Assembly (NCBI RefSeq): GCF_000612805.1
Contig: NZ_HG964407.1
Coordinates: 1-64,000, forward strand
DNA: 64,000 nucleotides
Reading direction: 5' to 3'
DNA from: Bacillus ndiopicus
Lineage (GTDB): Bacteria; Bacillota; Bacilli; Bacillales_A; Planococcaceae
A program made the translations under genes and the position numbers. Within the stretch, counting starts at the first letter, position 1; the number at the start of each line of letters is the position of its first letter. Positions 4,069 to 33,214 of this stretch are shown piece by piece. The notes beneath the pieces are model-generated. The model ran no database searches, had not been told where the DNA came from, and worked only from the letters and a program-made list of their open reading frames with translations.

Positions 4069-4848
4069 TTAACTATTATTGACTGCAACAACTGCATCTT
4101 GTAGTTTTTTTATTGCTGCCCTTTGAATTCGGGATACATGCATTTGCGAAATGCCTAGTTGCTCTCCAGCCTCTTTTTGACTCAGTTGTTTTAAATATGT
4201 AAGCTCTATTACCTTCTGCTCGCGCTCATTTAAAACATGCATAATTTCAGATACAATCATTCTTTGGTTTGCCATTTCAAACTCTAAGTCTTCTTTACCG
4301 ACAACATCGAACAATGTAACTGTACTACCATCAGAGTCGGATTCTATTGCACGATCCATTGACAACGCTTGGTAACCACGCCCCAATTCCATCGCTTCAA
4401 GCACTTCCTCTTCCTGCACTTCTAAACGTATAGCGATTTCAGTAATTGTAGGTGAACGCTGAAGTTCAGTCGTTAAGTGCTCCACTGTTGATTTAATGCG
4501 TGGGCCTAATTCTTTAATGCGACGTGGTACATGCACGTCCCAAGTTTTGTCTCGTAAAAAGCGTTTAATTTCTCCGATAATTGTAGGTATTGCAAATGCT
4601 TCAAAACTTCGTCCTACTGTCGTATCAAAACGTTGTATTGCTCCAAGTAAACCTAACATGCCAACTTGAACAATATCCTCGTAATACGTTTTACCAGCCG
4701 CGTATTTACGCGCTAATGCCTCTACTAGTTGTTGATAATGAAGTACTAGTTCTGTTTGAGCGGCTTCGTCTTTTGTAGCTTGATATTGTGCAATCCAATG
4801 GAGTACCTCTTTATCTGAGGCTTCATTAGGTAACGATTCTCTCGTCAT
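4069..4848 (-). CDS. sigB: RNA polymerase sigma factor SigB (general stress)
   Basis: A 259-aa sigma-70 family protein close to the 264 aa of B. subtilis SigB. Region 2 includes YEDIVQVGMLGLLGAIQRFD, region 3 lies in the middle, and region 4 ends with the helix-turn-helix QKEAGEQLGISQMHVSRIQ. It directs RNA polymerase to GTTTAA/GGGWAW promoters, examples of which occur in this window (5663-5687, 32886-32984). The ATG at 4848 has AGGTGG six bases upstream; a longer reading to 4875 lacks a site. It overlaps rsbW by 23 nt, consistent with translational coupling to its anti-sigma factor. Confidence 0.96.
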   Translation of the reverse strand: MTRESLPNEASDKEVLHWIAQYQATKDEAAQTELVLHYQQLVEALARKYAAGKTYYEDIVQVGMLGLLGAIQRFDTTVGRSFEAFAIPTIIGEIKRFLRDKTWDVHVPRRIKELGPRIKSTVEHLTTELQRSPTITEIAIRLEVQEEEVLEAMELGRGYQALSMDRAIESDSDGSTVTLFDVVGKEDLEFEMANQRMIVSEIMHVLNEREQKVIELTYLKQLSQKEAGEQLGISQMHVSRIQRAAIKKLQDAVVAVNNS

Positions 4849-5296
4849 AATCTTCCACCTGCTCTCTTGCGACATACTTTGTCATGAAAACAGTGACACC
4901 GCCCTCATTGTTTACCTTCACTTCATCCATGAGTGCTTCCATTAAATATAGCCCTAAGCCGCCTTCACGTAACATTGATATTTTCTCATTTTCGTTGTAG
5001 GGACCGATTTTAGATTTAACTTCTTCAAAATTAAAGCTATTGCCATAATCAGCTACCATAATCTCGATTTTATTATCGAATAAAGCGCAGCCAATAACAA
5101 CTTCACCTTCTTCAGTATCATGATAAGCATGATGAACGACATTTGTGACAGCTTCACCTGTGGCAATTTTCAAATCCTCAATTTCATCATAGGTAAACCC
5201 AACTCGCAATGCTAAACCTGAAATAGTAAGGCGAATGACACTAACATATTGTGGTTTAGCAGGGACTCTTATTTCTATATAATCAAATGCTTTCAT
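4826..5296 (-). CDS. rsbW: Anti-sigma-B factor and serine kinase RsbW
   Basis: A 156-aa GHKL-fold kinase with the N box EAVTNVVHHAYH and the glycine-rich GGLGLYLMEALMD. RsbW either binds SigB or phosphorylates and releases RsbV. The start ATG at 5296 follows GGTGGAG with a 7-nt gap; the upstream in-frame ATG at 5326 lies within rsbV and has no site. The gene overlaps rsbV by 14 nt and sigB by 23 nt, keeping the partner-switch proteins in proportion. Confidence 0.96.
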   Translation of the reverse strand: MKAFDYIEIRVPAKPQYVSVIRLTISGLALRVGFTYDEIEDLKIATGEAVTNVVHHAYHDTEEGEVVIGCALFDNKIEIMVADYGNSFNFEEVKSKIGPYNENEKISMLREGGLGLYLMEALMDEVKVNNEGGVTVFMTKYVAREQVEDYDERIVT

Positions 5297-5662: not shown

Positions 5663-5687
5663 ATTCCCTTTCTTCAAAATTTTAAAC
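5663..5687 (-). promoter_or_regulatory. Sigma-B promoter in front of rsbV
   Basis: On the minus strand GTTTAA (5682-5687) and GGGAAT (5663-5668) are separated by 13 nt, a full match to the sigma-B consensus. It lies between rsbU and rsbV, the place of the autoregulatory sigma-B promoter in B. subtilis. Confidence 0.9.
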
Positions 5688-6709: not shown

Positions 6710-7102
6710 TCACAACCATTTTTTTACGCGAACAGTTGTCCCTTCTTTTAATTGTGATTGAATTTCTATATCGTCCATTAATCTTTTAACCCCTGGTAAG
6801 CCAGCTCCAATACTACCCGATGTAGAAAATCCATCTTGCATTACGGCGCGTACATCTTCTATACCTGGACCTTGATCAGCAGCAGTTATTGCCAAGCCAA
6901 CTTTACCATCCTGCTCTACAGTTTCTATTGTAATCGTTCCAACACTGGCATATAAATATATATTGCGCGCTAGCTCACTAATAACTGTTGCAATGCGTGC
7001 TTGATTTACTGTGTCAAAGCCTATTTTTTTTGCTTCATTACGCCCTATTTCGCGCGCTGTAACAATATCCCATTCCGTTGTAATATTTATAGTAGATTTC
7101 AT
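6710..7102 (-). CDS. rsbT: RsbT, switch kinase and activator of RsbU
   Basis: A 130-aa GHKL kinase (B. subtilis RsbT is 133 aa) with the N-box region ISELARNIYLYA and the ATP lid motifs DQGPGIED and GAGLPGVKRLMDD. RsbT normally phosphorylates RsbS and RsbR in the stressosome and, when released, activates RsbU. No rsbR or rsbS lies upstream: the next gene is ndoA, 420 nt away. The ATG at 7102 follows GGTGAG; the longer reading to 7126 was not used. Confidence 0.92.
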   Translation of the reverse strand: MKSTINITTEWDIVTAREIGRNEAKKIGFDTVNQARIATVISELARNIYLYASVGTITIETVEQDGKVGLAITAADQGPGIEDVRAVMQDGFSTSGSIGAGLPGVKRLMDDIEIQSQLKEGTTVRVKKWL

Positions 7103-7142
7103 GCTTCTCACCGTCCCTGATGACATCTTAAAGTCTATTTTA

Positions 7143-7170
7143 AATATACCTTATAAAAATATTTTGTAAA
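7143..7170 (-). promoter_or_regulatory. Possible promoter of rsbT-rsbU
   Basis: On the minus strand TTTACA (7165-7170) and TATATT (7143-7148) are 16 nt apart, about 40 nt upstream of rsbT. Since a strong terminator follows ndoA, rsbTU needs its own promoter here. The rest of 7171-7453 holds no recognisable gene or further signal. Confidence 0.45.
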
Positions 7171-7453
7171 ATTAATTCTATCCAAAGTTATTTGTTAACG
7201 TTGAAAATTCCTGAGAAATGATTTGTGATGCAACGGCAAGGATTTTCCCCTTCAATGATAAAGCAGTCCGCAAACAAATTCGCCCCGAGTAATATTTGCT
7301 CATTTGCTTAATTTCTCTATAAAAGGCCGAAAATTCGGTTTTTTTGCCTTTTTTATAAATAAAAAGTGAAATAACACGTTATTTTTAATCAGCATCAAGC
7401 CAAGCAATTTTATAATTCTTTCAAAATTTCGAAGTTACTTTCTATAATGGCAT

Positions 7454-7508
7454 CAAAAAAATAGCTGTCTGAAAAATCATGCATCAGCATGCTTTCCAGA
7501 CAGCTATT
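7454..7508 (-). terminator. Terminator after ndoA
   Basis: A perfect 12-bp stem AATAGCTGTCTG/CAGACAGCTATT with a loop that can pair further (GCATGATGCATG-like), followed on the minus strand by seven T. It separates ndoAI-ndoA from the rsb operon. Confidence 0.9.
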
Positions 7509-7522
7509 TTCATTATTATGTA

Positions 7523-7873
7523 TTAAAAACTTACGAGGCCTAAACTAATACCTAATGCCATATCAACTTTTTCCATTAATTCATCATCAAGCTGTGTAAT
7601 GCGATCTGTTAATCGCGATTTATCAATAGTACGCAATTGCTCAAGCAAAATTACCGAATCGCGTTCAAACCCATACTTTTTAGCATCGATTTCGACATGG
7701 GTTGGCAATTTTGCTTTTTGAATTTGCGCAGTAATAGCAGCTATAATGACGGTTGGACTAAATCTATTGCCAATATCATTTTGAATAATTAGTACAGGTC
7801 TTGTACCACCTTGCTCTGAGCCTATAACAGGTGATAGATCTGCAAAAAAAACGTCTCCACGTTTTACGCTCAA
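7523..7873 (-). CDS. ndoA: MazF/NdoA-type mRNA interferase toxin
   Basis: A 116-aa protein, exactly the length of B. subtilis NdoA (EndoA), which cuts mRNA at UACAU-type sites. The family signature [20 protein letters not shown] opens the protein, and [19 protein letters not shown] follows. The start is a TTG at 7873 preceded by GGGGGATG; reading further upstream to 7933 would overlap ndoAI. It begins 4 nt after the ndoAI stop, so toxin and antitoxin are co-expressed. Confidence 0.95.
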
Positions 7874-7877
7874 ATTG

Positions 7878-8153
7878 TCATCCCCCGCTAACGAGACGCT
7901 GCTCCACCATATGTTCCGCTTCATATTCTGCATGCAGGCATTCGCTGCAAATCATCAGATTAATATGCGACATTTCCACATAGCCCTTTTCTAAAGCTTC
8001 CCGTATCTGATTTGGTTGTGTCTGCTTCACTCGTTTAGATGTTGAAACATACAGCATTTCGCCATTATAGAAATTTCTTTGGGCAAATATTTGTTGAATT
8101 TCTACTAATGACTCGTTTGAAGAGTTCGTATTCTCTCTATTTTTCGTGTACAC
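7878..8153 (-). CDS. ndoAI: NdoAI/MazE-type antitoxin with diverged N-terminus
   Basis: A 91-aa protein. The C-terminal half, which binds the toxin, keeps the family pattern ([10 protein letters not shown]...[14 protein letters not shown]). The N-terminal half, normally a clear ribbon-helix-helix DNA-binding domain, is hard to recognise here and reads as a diverged segment with [14 protein letters not shown]. The GTG at 8153 was chosen because GGAGGTG lies 6 nt upstream. Placement directly before ndoA and after alr matches B. subtilis. Operon autoregulation may differ if DNA binding is weakened. Confidence 0.88.
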
Positions 8154-17246: not shown

Positions 17247-17273
17247 AGATCCTTAATTAAGCAATCTTTTCTA

Positions 17274-17494
17274 CGACGAGTAATCGCAGGAGCATATGTT
17301 TTTTTGCGACGAGTAATCGCAGGAGCATATGTTTTTTTGCGACGAGTAATCGCAGGAGCATATGTTTTTTTGCGACGAGTAATCGCAGGAGCATATGTTT
17401 TTTTGCGACGAGTAATCGCAGGAGCATATGTTTTTTTGCGACGAGTAATCGCAGGAGCATATGTTTTTTTGCGACGAGTAATCGCAGGAGCATA
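17274..17494. repeat. Seven-copy 33-bp tandem repeat
   Basis: Units start at 17274, 17307, 17340, 17373, 17406, 17439 and 17472. Each reads CGACGAGTAATCGCAGGAGC, then ATATG, seven T and G. Copies are essentially identical, so the array is recent or kept uniform. Each unit contains GCGA/TCGC that can form a small stem. Because 33 is divisible by three, several frames stay open through the array; these are not genes. There are no spacers, so it is not CRISPR. Diverged single copies lie at 3881 and 21211. The rest of 17495-17594 holds an AAATCATCTT/AAGATGATTT stem-loop and no gene. Confidence 0.95.
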
Positions 17495-17594
17495 TATTAA
17501 TGCAGGAAGCACAAATCATCTTCAAAAGATGATTTGATGAAAACTAACAATCATTAGAATAGAAAAAAATTCTATTGATTGGTATTTTGTTTTA

Positions 17595-32534: not shown

Positions 32535-32846
32535 TTAAGTTAATTCTTTTTGGTCATTTTCATTATAGTACTGTACCGATGTTTGTGCACCTTCCGCAAT
32601 CATATTGTTTTCACGAATTTCAGTCGTATCTGCGCTACCAGCCGTTTCAGCTAGATTTTGCAACGGTGTTTCTTCTTCCATTGATGCCCTATTGTCTCTC
32701 ATTCCATCCATCATTTCAGTCGCTTTTGCTTTTGCATCCTGAATATAGTTCATTACTTTGTCCCTGTTTTCCTTTTTACTTAAATAGCTCGCTGCTCCTG
32801 CAACTAAACCTGCAATAACAACGCCTTTTCCTTTTAGTTTTGCCAT
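32535..32846 (-). CDS. YtxH-like general stress protein
   Basis: A 103-aa protein with a short N-terminal glycine/alanine-rich hydrophobic segment (GVVIAGLVAGAASYL, about 8-22), then the SKKENRDKVMNYIQDAKAKA helix typical of YtxH/DUF948-like stress proteins, and an acidic tail. GGAGGG lies 7 nt before the ATG at 32846. A consensus sigma-B promoter directly upstream supports general stress control. Confidence 0.8.
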   Translation of the reverse strand: MAKLKGKGVVIAGLVAGAASYLSKKENRDKVMNYIQDAKAKATEMMDGMRDNRASMEEETPLQNLAETAGSADTTEIRENNMIAEGAQTSVQYYNENDQKELT

Positions 32847-32885: not shown

Positions 32886-32911
32886 ATACCCTACCGATTT
32901 ATAGTTTAAAC
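32886..32911 (-). promoter_or_regulatory. Sigma-B promoter of the YtxH-like gene
   Basis: On the minus strand GTTTAA (32906-32911), 14 nt, GGGTAT (32886-32891), 40 nt before the start codon: a full consensus match. Confidence 0.9.
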
Positions 32912-32958
32912 ATTTTGGTATGTAAATCAGTGACATCCCCTATTTTTTCATAAAAAAT

Positions 32959-32984
32959 GTTTCTATTTTTTTAATTTAGGGTAT
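32959..32984 (+). promoter_or_regulatory. Sigma-B promoter of the 33-aa membrane protein
   Basis: On the plus strand GTTTCT (32959-32964), 14 nt, GGGTAT (32979-32984). One change from consensus in the -35. It is divergent from the ytxH-like promoter, 47 nt away. Confidence 0.8.
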
Positions 32985-33017
32985 AAAAGCAATAATAATA
33001 GAAAGGGGCGATGAAAA

Positions 33018-33119
33018 ATGTTTAAATTTCAAGACATACAGTTTGGCGGACAAGAAGTATTATCAATACTAGGAGCGGCAGGCGTGTTAACATCGCTCGT
33101 GTATTTCTTCGTGTTTTAA
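33018..33119 (+). CDS. Tiny single-span membrane protein (33 aa)
   Basis: A 33-aa frame, MFKFQDIQFGGQEVLSILGA at the N-terminus, followed by a hydrophobic end (AGVLTSLVYFFVF) that should span the membrane. AAAGGGG stands 9 nt before the ATG. A sigma-B promoter lies upstream and a terminator shared with the convergent acetyltransferase follows. I do not recognise the family; a stress-induced membrane peptide is the simplest reading. Confidence 0.7.
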   Translation: MFKFQDIQFGGQEVLSILGAAGVLTSLVYFFVF

Positions 33120-33154: not shown

Positions 33155-33203
33155 AAAAGTTGTCTGAAAGCAGTGTACTAGCTTCTTTTCAGACAACTCT
33201 TTT
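33155..33203. terminator. Bidirectional terminator of the GTTGTCYGAAAAG family
   Basis: Stem AAAAAGTTGTCTGAAA/TTTCAGACAACT-TTTTT with a 17-nt loop. Confidence 0.9.
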
Positions 33204-33214
33204 TTAATATATTG

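Follow-up and report, generated by a model that had tools for sequence, protein, structure and literature searches.

General stress regulons are rich in genes of unknown function, and genes as short as the one described here are easily missed. Among the described systems closest to the locus examined here are KdpF, CydX, AcrZ, and MgtS, small membrane proteins that serve as accessories to transporters and oxidases. The others are two families of small proteins and one regulon. In Listeria, Prli42 (NF033880; ~31 amino acids, one membrane helix, sigma-B linked) belongs to the stressosome, where its basic cytosolic N terminus binds RsbR (PMC6614362). In Bacillus cereus G9241, DUF3948 (PF13134; ~35 amino acids) is represented by five adjacent homologous genes of ~110 nucleotides each, whose function is unknown (PMC10196113). 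The sigma-B regulon of B. subtilis, with rsbV, ctc, and ytxGHJ among its members, is read from promoters of the type GTTTAA-N14-GGGTAT, for which the 14-base spacer is optimal (PMC9847131), a motif alternatively given as GTTTaa plus GGGWAW with a spacer of 13 to 15 bases (PMC7824861).

Here we describe a gene of 33 codons in a stretch of 64 kb from Bacillus ndiopicus, referred to as the window. We are highly confident that this small gene is real and encodes a membrane microprotein, probably under sigma-B control. It shares the promoter type of the B. subtilis regulon and differs from that regulon in that it was not found outside its family in the genomes sampled. A literature search returned no paper on it.

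The locus and its sigma-B-type promoters

The small gene is an ATG frame at positions 33018 to 33119 of the plus strand, stop included, and its product, MFKFQDIQFGGQEVLSILGAAGVLTSLVYFFVF, is a 33-amino-acid protein that its homologues, dN/dS, and predicted helix mark as a single-helix membrane protein. An AAGGGG region at 33003 to 33008 (plus strand) reads as the ribosome-binding site, and GTTTCT-N14-GGGTAT at 32959 to 32984 (plus strand) matches a sigma-B promoter in sequence and is conserved among relatives. A second match, GTTTAA-N14-GGGTAT, runs on the minus strand from 32911 to 32886, 47 bp away, before a divergent ytxH-like gene (32535 to 32846, minus strand). For that gene we used the 103-amino-acid form starting MAKLKGKG, instead of the 133-amino-acid frame in the open reading frame list, which begins upstream of the promoter. 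On the other side lies the convergent gene of a small GNAT-family acetyltransferase (PF14542; 33215 to 33502, minus strand), separated from the small gene by a hairpin and T-run at about 33157 to 33205 that is likely a bidirectional terminator (fold z of -2.6, with a loop exceeding the length allowed by the automatic terminator scan). The two promoter sites, the 33-codon frame, its ribosome site, and a terminator had all been pointed out in an earlier note on this DNA, and each is present in the sequence as described, the terminator as this hairpin.

Both sites have the 14-base spacer, and the small gene is preceded by the -35 and -10 elements of a sigma-B promoter. The pattern GTTTNN-N12..14-GGGTAT occurs twice in the 64 kb, at these two sites, against 0.34 matches expected by chance, and 6 of 100 shuffled sequences had at least two. 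Judged on the window sequence alone, the two promoter-like sites are therefore only suggestive of sigma B. Among relatives, nearly every lineage has a sigma-B-type site 50 to 110 bp upstream of the small gene, with Ureibacillus as the exception. The strict form, GTTT-N14..17-GGGTA within 120 bp upstream, was found at 66 of 68 loci in seven genera (Metasolibacillus, 5/5; Sporosarcina, 18/18; Bhargavaea, 5/5; Psychrobacillus, 12/14; genus g8, 21/21; g12, 3/3; g13, 2/2), compared with 0.14% of shuffled upstream sequences. Looser variants, in which the -35 element is GATT and the -10 element GGGAA or GGATA, precede the gene in 30/32 Lysinibacillus and 13/15 Solibacillus loci (shuffled rate, 1.3%), and both genomes of g2 fit this looser pattern as well. 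Some Solibacillus and Psychrobacillus loci match neither form. The GATT/GGGAA and GATT/GGATAA variants do not fully follow the B. subtilis consensus, and a different sigma factor might recognize them.

In Ureibacillus, the small gene has a strict site upstream at 0/20 loci and a loose one at 1/20, which suggests a change in how the gene is regulated there. Many Ureibacillus ytxH genes (loci L061 to L083) keep a looser site, GTTTAA-14-GGAAA, where the small gene has no visible sigma-B site. For the window and most relatives, the promoter patterns indicate that the small gene very probably belongs to the sigma-B regulon. Moreover, the shared stress control that the earlier note had proposed for the small gene and the ytxH-like gene is borne out to the extent that sigma-B-type promoters are kept before both among relatives; at 47 of the 80 named loci, a strict site precedes the ytxH-like gene itself, and most of the remaining loci have a looser one there.

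Conservation and coding capacity

A single-protein search recovered the small gene in all five genomes of the window's genus (94 to 100% identity) and gave weak matches in other genera, and a search with an alignment grown stepwise found homologues of 30 to 37 amino acids in 191 of the 261 family genomes, covering 12 of 19 genera. Stops or frameshifts in sister strains, named beforehand as the observation that would speak against a gene, did not appear: the frame is intact in 5/5 genomes of the genus and in those 191 of the family. Profile iteration on short hydrophobic sequences can drift, a risk guarded against by synteny, since the same GNAT gene lies convergent just downstream of the small gene in 139/139 loci read. 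A scan of 399 genomes drawn from the whole class gave convincing matches only within the family; those outside it were weak and mostly fragments of much longer frames. One such match outside the family, a 29-amino-acid frame in genome G524 (MHTYTWKEIMSAIAAAIVLSSLAFALSLY; locus L290, frame starting at ~1000), was rejected as a homologue, being weak and without the invariant Thr; its similarity is to the N-terminal half of that protein family's short product. Several genera with sigB, and also some Ureibacillus with sigB, have no small frame. The distribution suggests that the gene is ancestral or nearly so in Planococcaceae/Caryophanaceae, with Metasolibacillus, Lysinibacillus, Solibacillus, Ureibacillus, Sporosarcina, Psychrobacillus, and Bhargavaea among the genera that carry it.

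The small gene evolves as a protein-coding gene does: frame, start, and ribosome site are conserved, dN/dS lies between 0.05 and 0.20 in all eleven genera in which it could be determined, and changes concentrate at third codon positions. Compared with the nearest relative, the gene of the window's genus shows four synonymous and no amino-acid changes. These values bear on the possibility that the frame, short and promoter-proximal as it is, serves as a leader peptide or arises by chance within a regulatory RNA. Such a reading is scarcely credible, because dN/dS is well under 1 and because a convergent gene follows in 139/139 loci, so that the transcript of the small gene contains no further gene to lead. 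The size and the single hydrophobic helix would likewise fit a membrane peptide of antimicrobial or type I toxin-like character, but this is very improbable: the gene is under strong purifying selection, most genomes carry it once and at a constant position, and PHROGs and phage and plasmid collections gave no match. The small gene as a membrane protein gene, with one hydrophobic span as first proposed, is upheld by family-wide homologues, low dN/dS, and a single predicted helix.

Association with sigB and with the ytxH-like gene

The window carries sigB itself (4069 to 4875, minus strand; TIGR02941, E = 5.9e-115), 28 kb from the small gene. Also on the minus strand, at 4 to 7 kb, are rsbW, rsbV, rsbU, and rsbT, of which rsbV, rsbU, and rsbT were identified by sequence. 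Just upstream of rsbV, at 5664 to 5687 (minus strand), stands GTTTAA-12-GGGAA, likely an autoregulatory sigma-B promoter. The genes rsbR and rsbS are usually located between rsbT and a mazF-like gene; in the window, this interval (6710 to 7933) has no frame of at least 50 amino acids fitting either.

In the family, sigB is present in 253 of 261 genomes. Neither sigB nor rsbW was found in G035, which belongs to the Solibacillus genus and consists of one contig, or in G019, two genomes from lineages in which the small gene would be expected. Each retains the ytxH-like and GNAT genes in place, with a broken relic of the small frame between them. The G035 relic has lost its start and its frame is shifted, whereas the other 15 genomes of that genus all have sigB and an intact small frame; the G019 relic has its membrane half destroyed and shows no ribosome site. 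There is a counterexample in G276, a Ureibacillus genome without sigB in which the small frame is intact, from a lineage without a sigma-B site before the gene. Thus, the small gene appears to track sigma B more closely than it tracks ytxH, although imperfectly, and two decays are few. These two cases, in which the gene decayed naturally where sigB is missing, offer ready-made genetic evidence.

The earlier note had gone further and suggested that shared control implies shared function with the YtxH-like protein. The name itself proved loose: the protein scores 15.2 bits (E = 0.029) against PF12732, far from the cut-off of 37.5, and four of ten homologues match this family, weakly. A functional pair, either a complex or a joint stress module with divergent sigma-B promoters ensuring coexpression, would account for the arrangement at 74/74 loci in five genera, where ytxH lies divergently 134 to 887 bp upstream of the small gene, for its position 1.3 to 1.9 kb upstream in several Sporosarcina, Psychrobacillus, and Bhargavaea, and for the sigma-B-type site before ytxH nearly everywhere. 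However, the small gene also occurs with ytxH at that greater distance or with none near it, as at the loci of g8, g12, g13, and g2 within flanks of 0.8 to 1.5 kb; some Ureibacillus have ytxH adjoining the GNAT gene with no small frame between; and the two genomes without sigB retain ytxH while the small gene is lost. Given how stable the whole neighborhood is, the two genes may be adjacent by inheritance and not for a functional reason. We therefore consider the pair unlikely, and the claim of shared function is not sustained.

The spacing varies even within the genus. In three other genomes of the window's genus (L088, L089, and L090), the ytxH-like and small genes are 600 to 700 bp apart, with an apparent second acetyltransferase gene between them. 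A record titled Arthrobacter beigongshangensis (L237; NZ_JADHDX010000008.1) has a Sporosarcina-type locus of ytxH and the small gene and is probably misnamed or contaminated.

Relationship to known small proteins and a proposed function

Prli42 resembles the small protein in size, in its one membrane helix, and in a link to sigma B, which for the small gene consists of its presence pattern and its promoter. By analogy, the small protein could act upstream of sigma B, as a sensor in its pathway or as a tether for it. Identity with Prli42 is excluded, since a separate, true Prli42 (NF033880 over the cut-off) is encoded elsewhere in all ten genomes tested, the window's included, and none of 38 members of the small-protein family matched NF033880 at an E value of 1. 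The N terminus also differs, with a net charge of -3 to 0 in 111 of 118 distinct sequences in place of the basic K4, K5, and R8 of Prli42 (PMC6614362). In addition, the small gene itself stands under a sigma-B promoter, although positive feedback would still fit. A Prli42-like role is thus highly unlikely.

No Pfam or NCBIfam family reached its cut-off with any of the 38 members searched, and profile and fold searches of the PDB gave nothing useful. The nearest family is DUF3948, matched by 14 of the 38 members, with a best E value of 1.9e-4 and 21.5 bits; this best match is colinear over most of the length, from residues 5 to 31 of the protein and 7 to 33 of the 35-position profile. In whole-genome scans, moreover, the best DUF3948 matches fall mainly at the small-gene locus. 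On these grounds the small protein might belong to the DUF3948 micropeptides of the Bacillus cereus group and share their function. Against this, every match stays below the gathering threshold (21.5 versus 25 bits), and the five adjacent copies in B. cereus G9241 (PMC10196113) contrast with a single gene behind a sigma-B-type promoter here. The window's own protein has no DUF3948 match, and none of the 399 class genomes yielded one over the cut-off. We regard membership with a common function as a serious contender that falls a little short of an even chance, and the sequence comparison as indicating a possible remote kinship, not membership.

The protein family itself is defined by a sharp signature, [FY]-x3-[DE]-x7-[AS]-x2-[LIVMC]-T, derived from the 118 distinct sequences. 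Four positions, [FY]9, [DE]13, [AS]21, and T25 (spacing i, i+4, i+12, i+16), are conserved in type in 118/118, and only one of the 188 ATG frames of 28 to 60 amino acids in the window, the small gene, carries the signature. The N terminus is neutral or acidic, as the net charges given above indicate, and the C-terminal half has no K or R in any of the 118. Mean hydropathy in this set reaches up to 2.17 over 19 residues, as for one hydrophobic helix of about that length, and for the window protein a single helix is predicted from sequence at residues 5 to 32 (mean pLDDT, 85). A helical-face test of conservation gave a weak result (P = 0.03 to 0.12, depending on the stretch chosen).

We propose that under stress the sigma-B RNA polymerase would make a short monocistronic transcript of the small gene and that the 33-amino-acid product would insert as one helix, comprising about residues 14 to 32 and ending at or near the C terminus, with the neutral to acidic N-terminal segment at the membrane surface. 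With a small-xxx-T face, the helix could then pack against a second membrane helix and so adjust or stabilize a larger membrane protein during stress. Packing is suggested by the four-position spacing, the small-xxx-T motif, and the absence of a soluble domain. The proposed mode of action, one short helix, and regulation by stress or condition are those of KdpF, CydX, AcrZ, and MgtS, to which the small protein may be likened in these respects. To the specific role, in which a one-helix protein induced by stress assists or regulates a larger membrane protein, we give an even chance. As a whole, a sigma-B microprotein gene acting by helix packing is the best explanation of the locus and, in our judgment, a likely one. 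The adjacent ytxH-like protein is a candidate partner, though not a favored one. More tentatively, the small gene may be a core member of the sigma-B regulon throughout the family, encoding a fixed-signature one-helix stress subunit of one larger membrane protein and lost together with sigma B.

Most of this family, whose members live in soil and the sea and include Lysinibacillus and Sporosarcina, has kept the small gene, and with a signature so sharp and conserved positions so few, its function could be assigned from a deletion and a small set of point mutants. Elsewhere in the window, a tandem array at 17267 to 17495 consists of 6.9 copies of a 33-base unit (98% matches) and reads in frame as FLRRVIAGAYV repeats within a 128-amino-acid frame.
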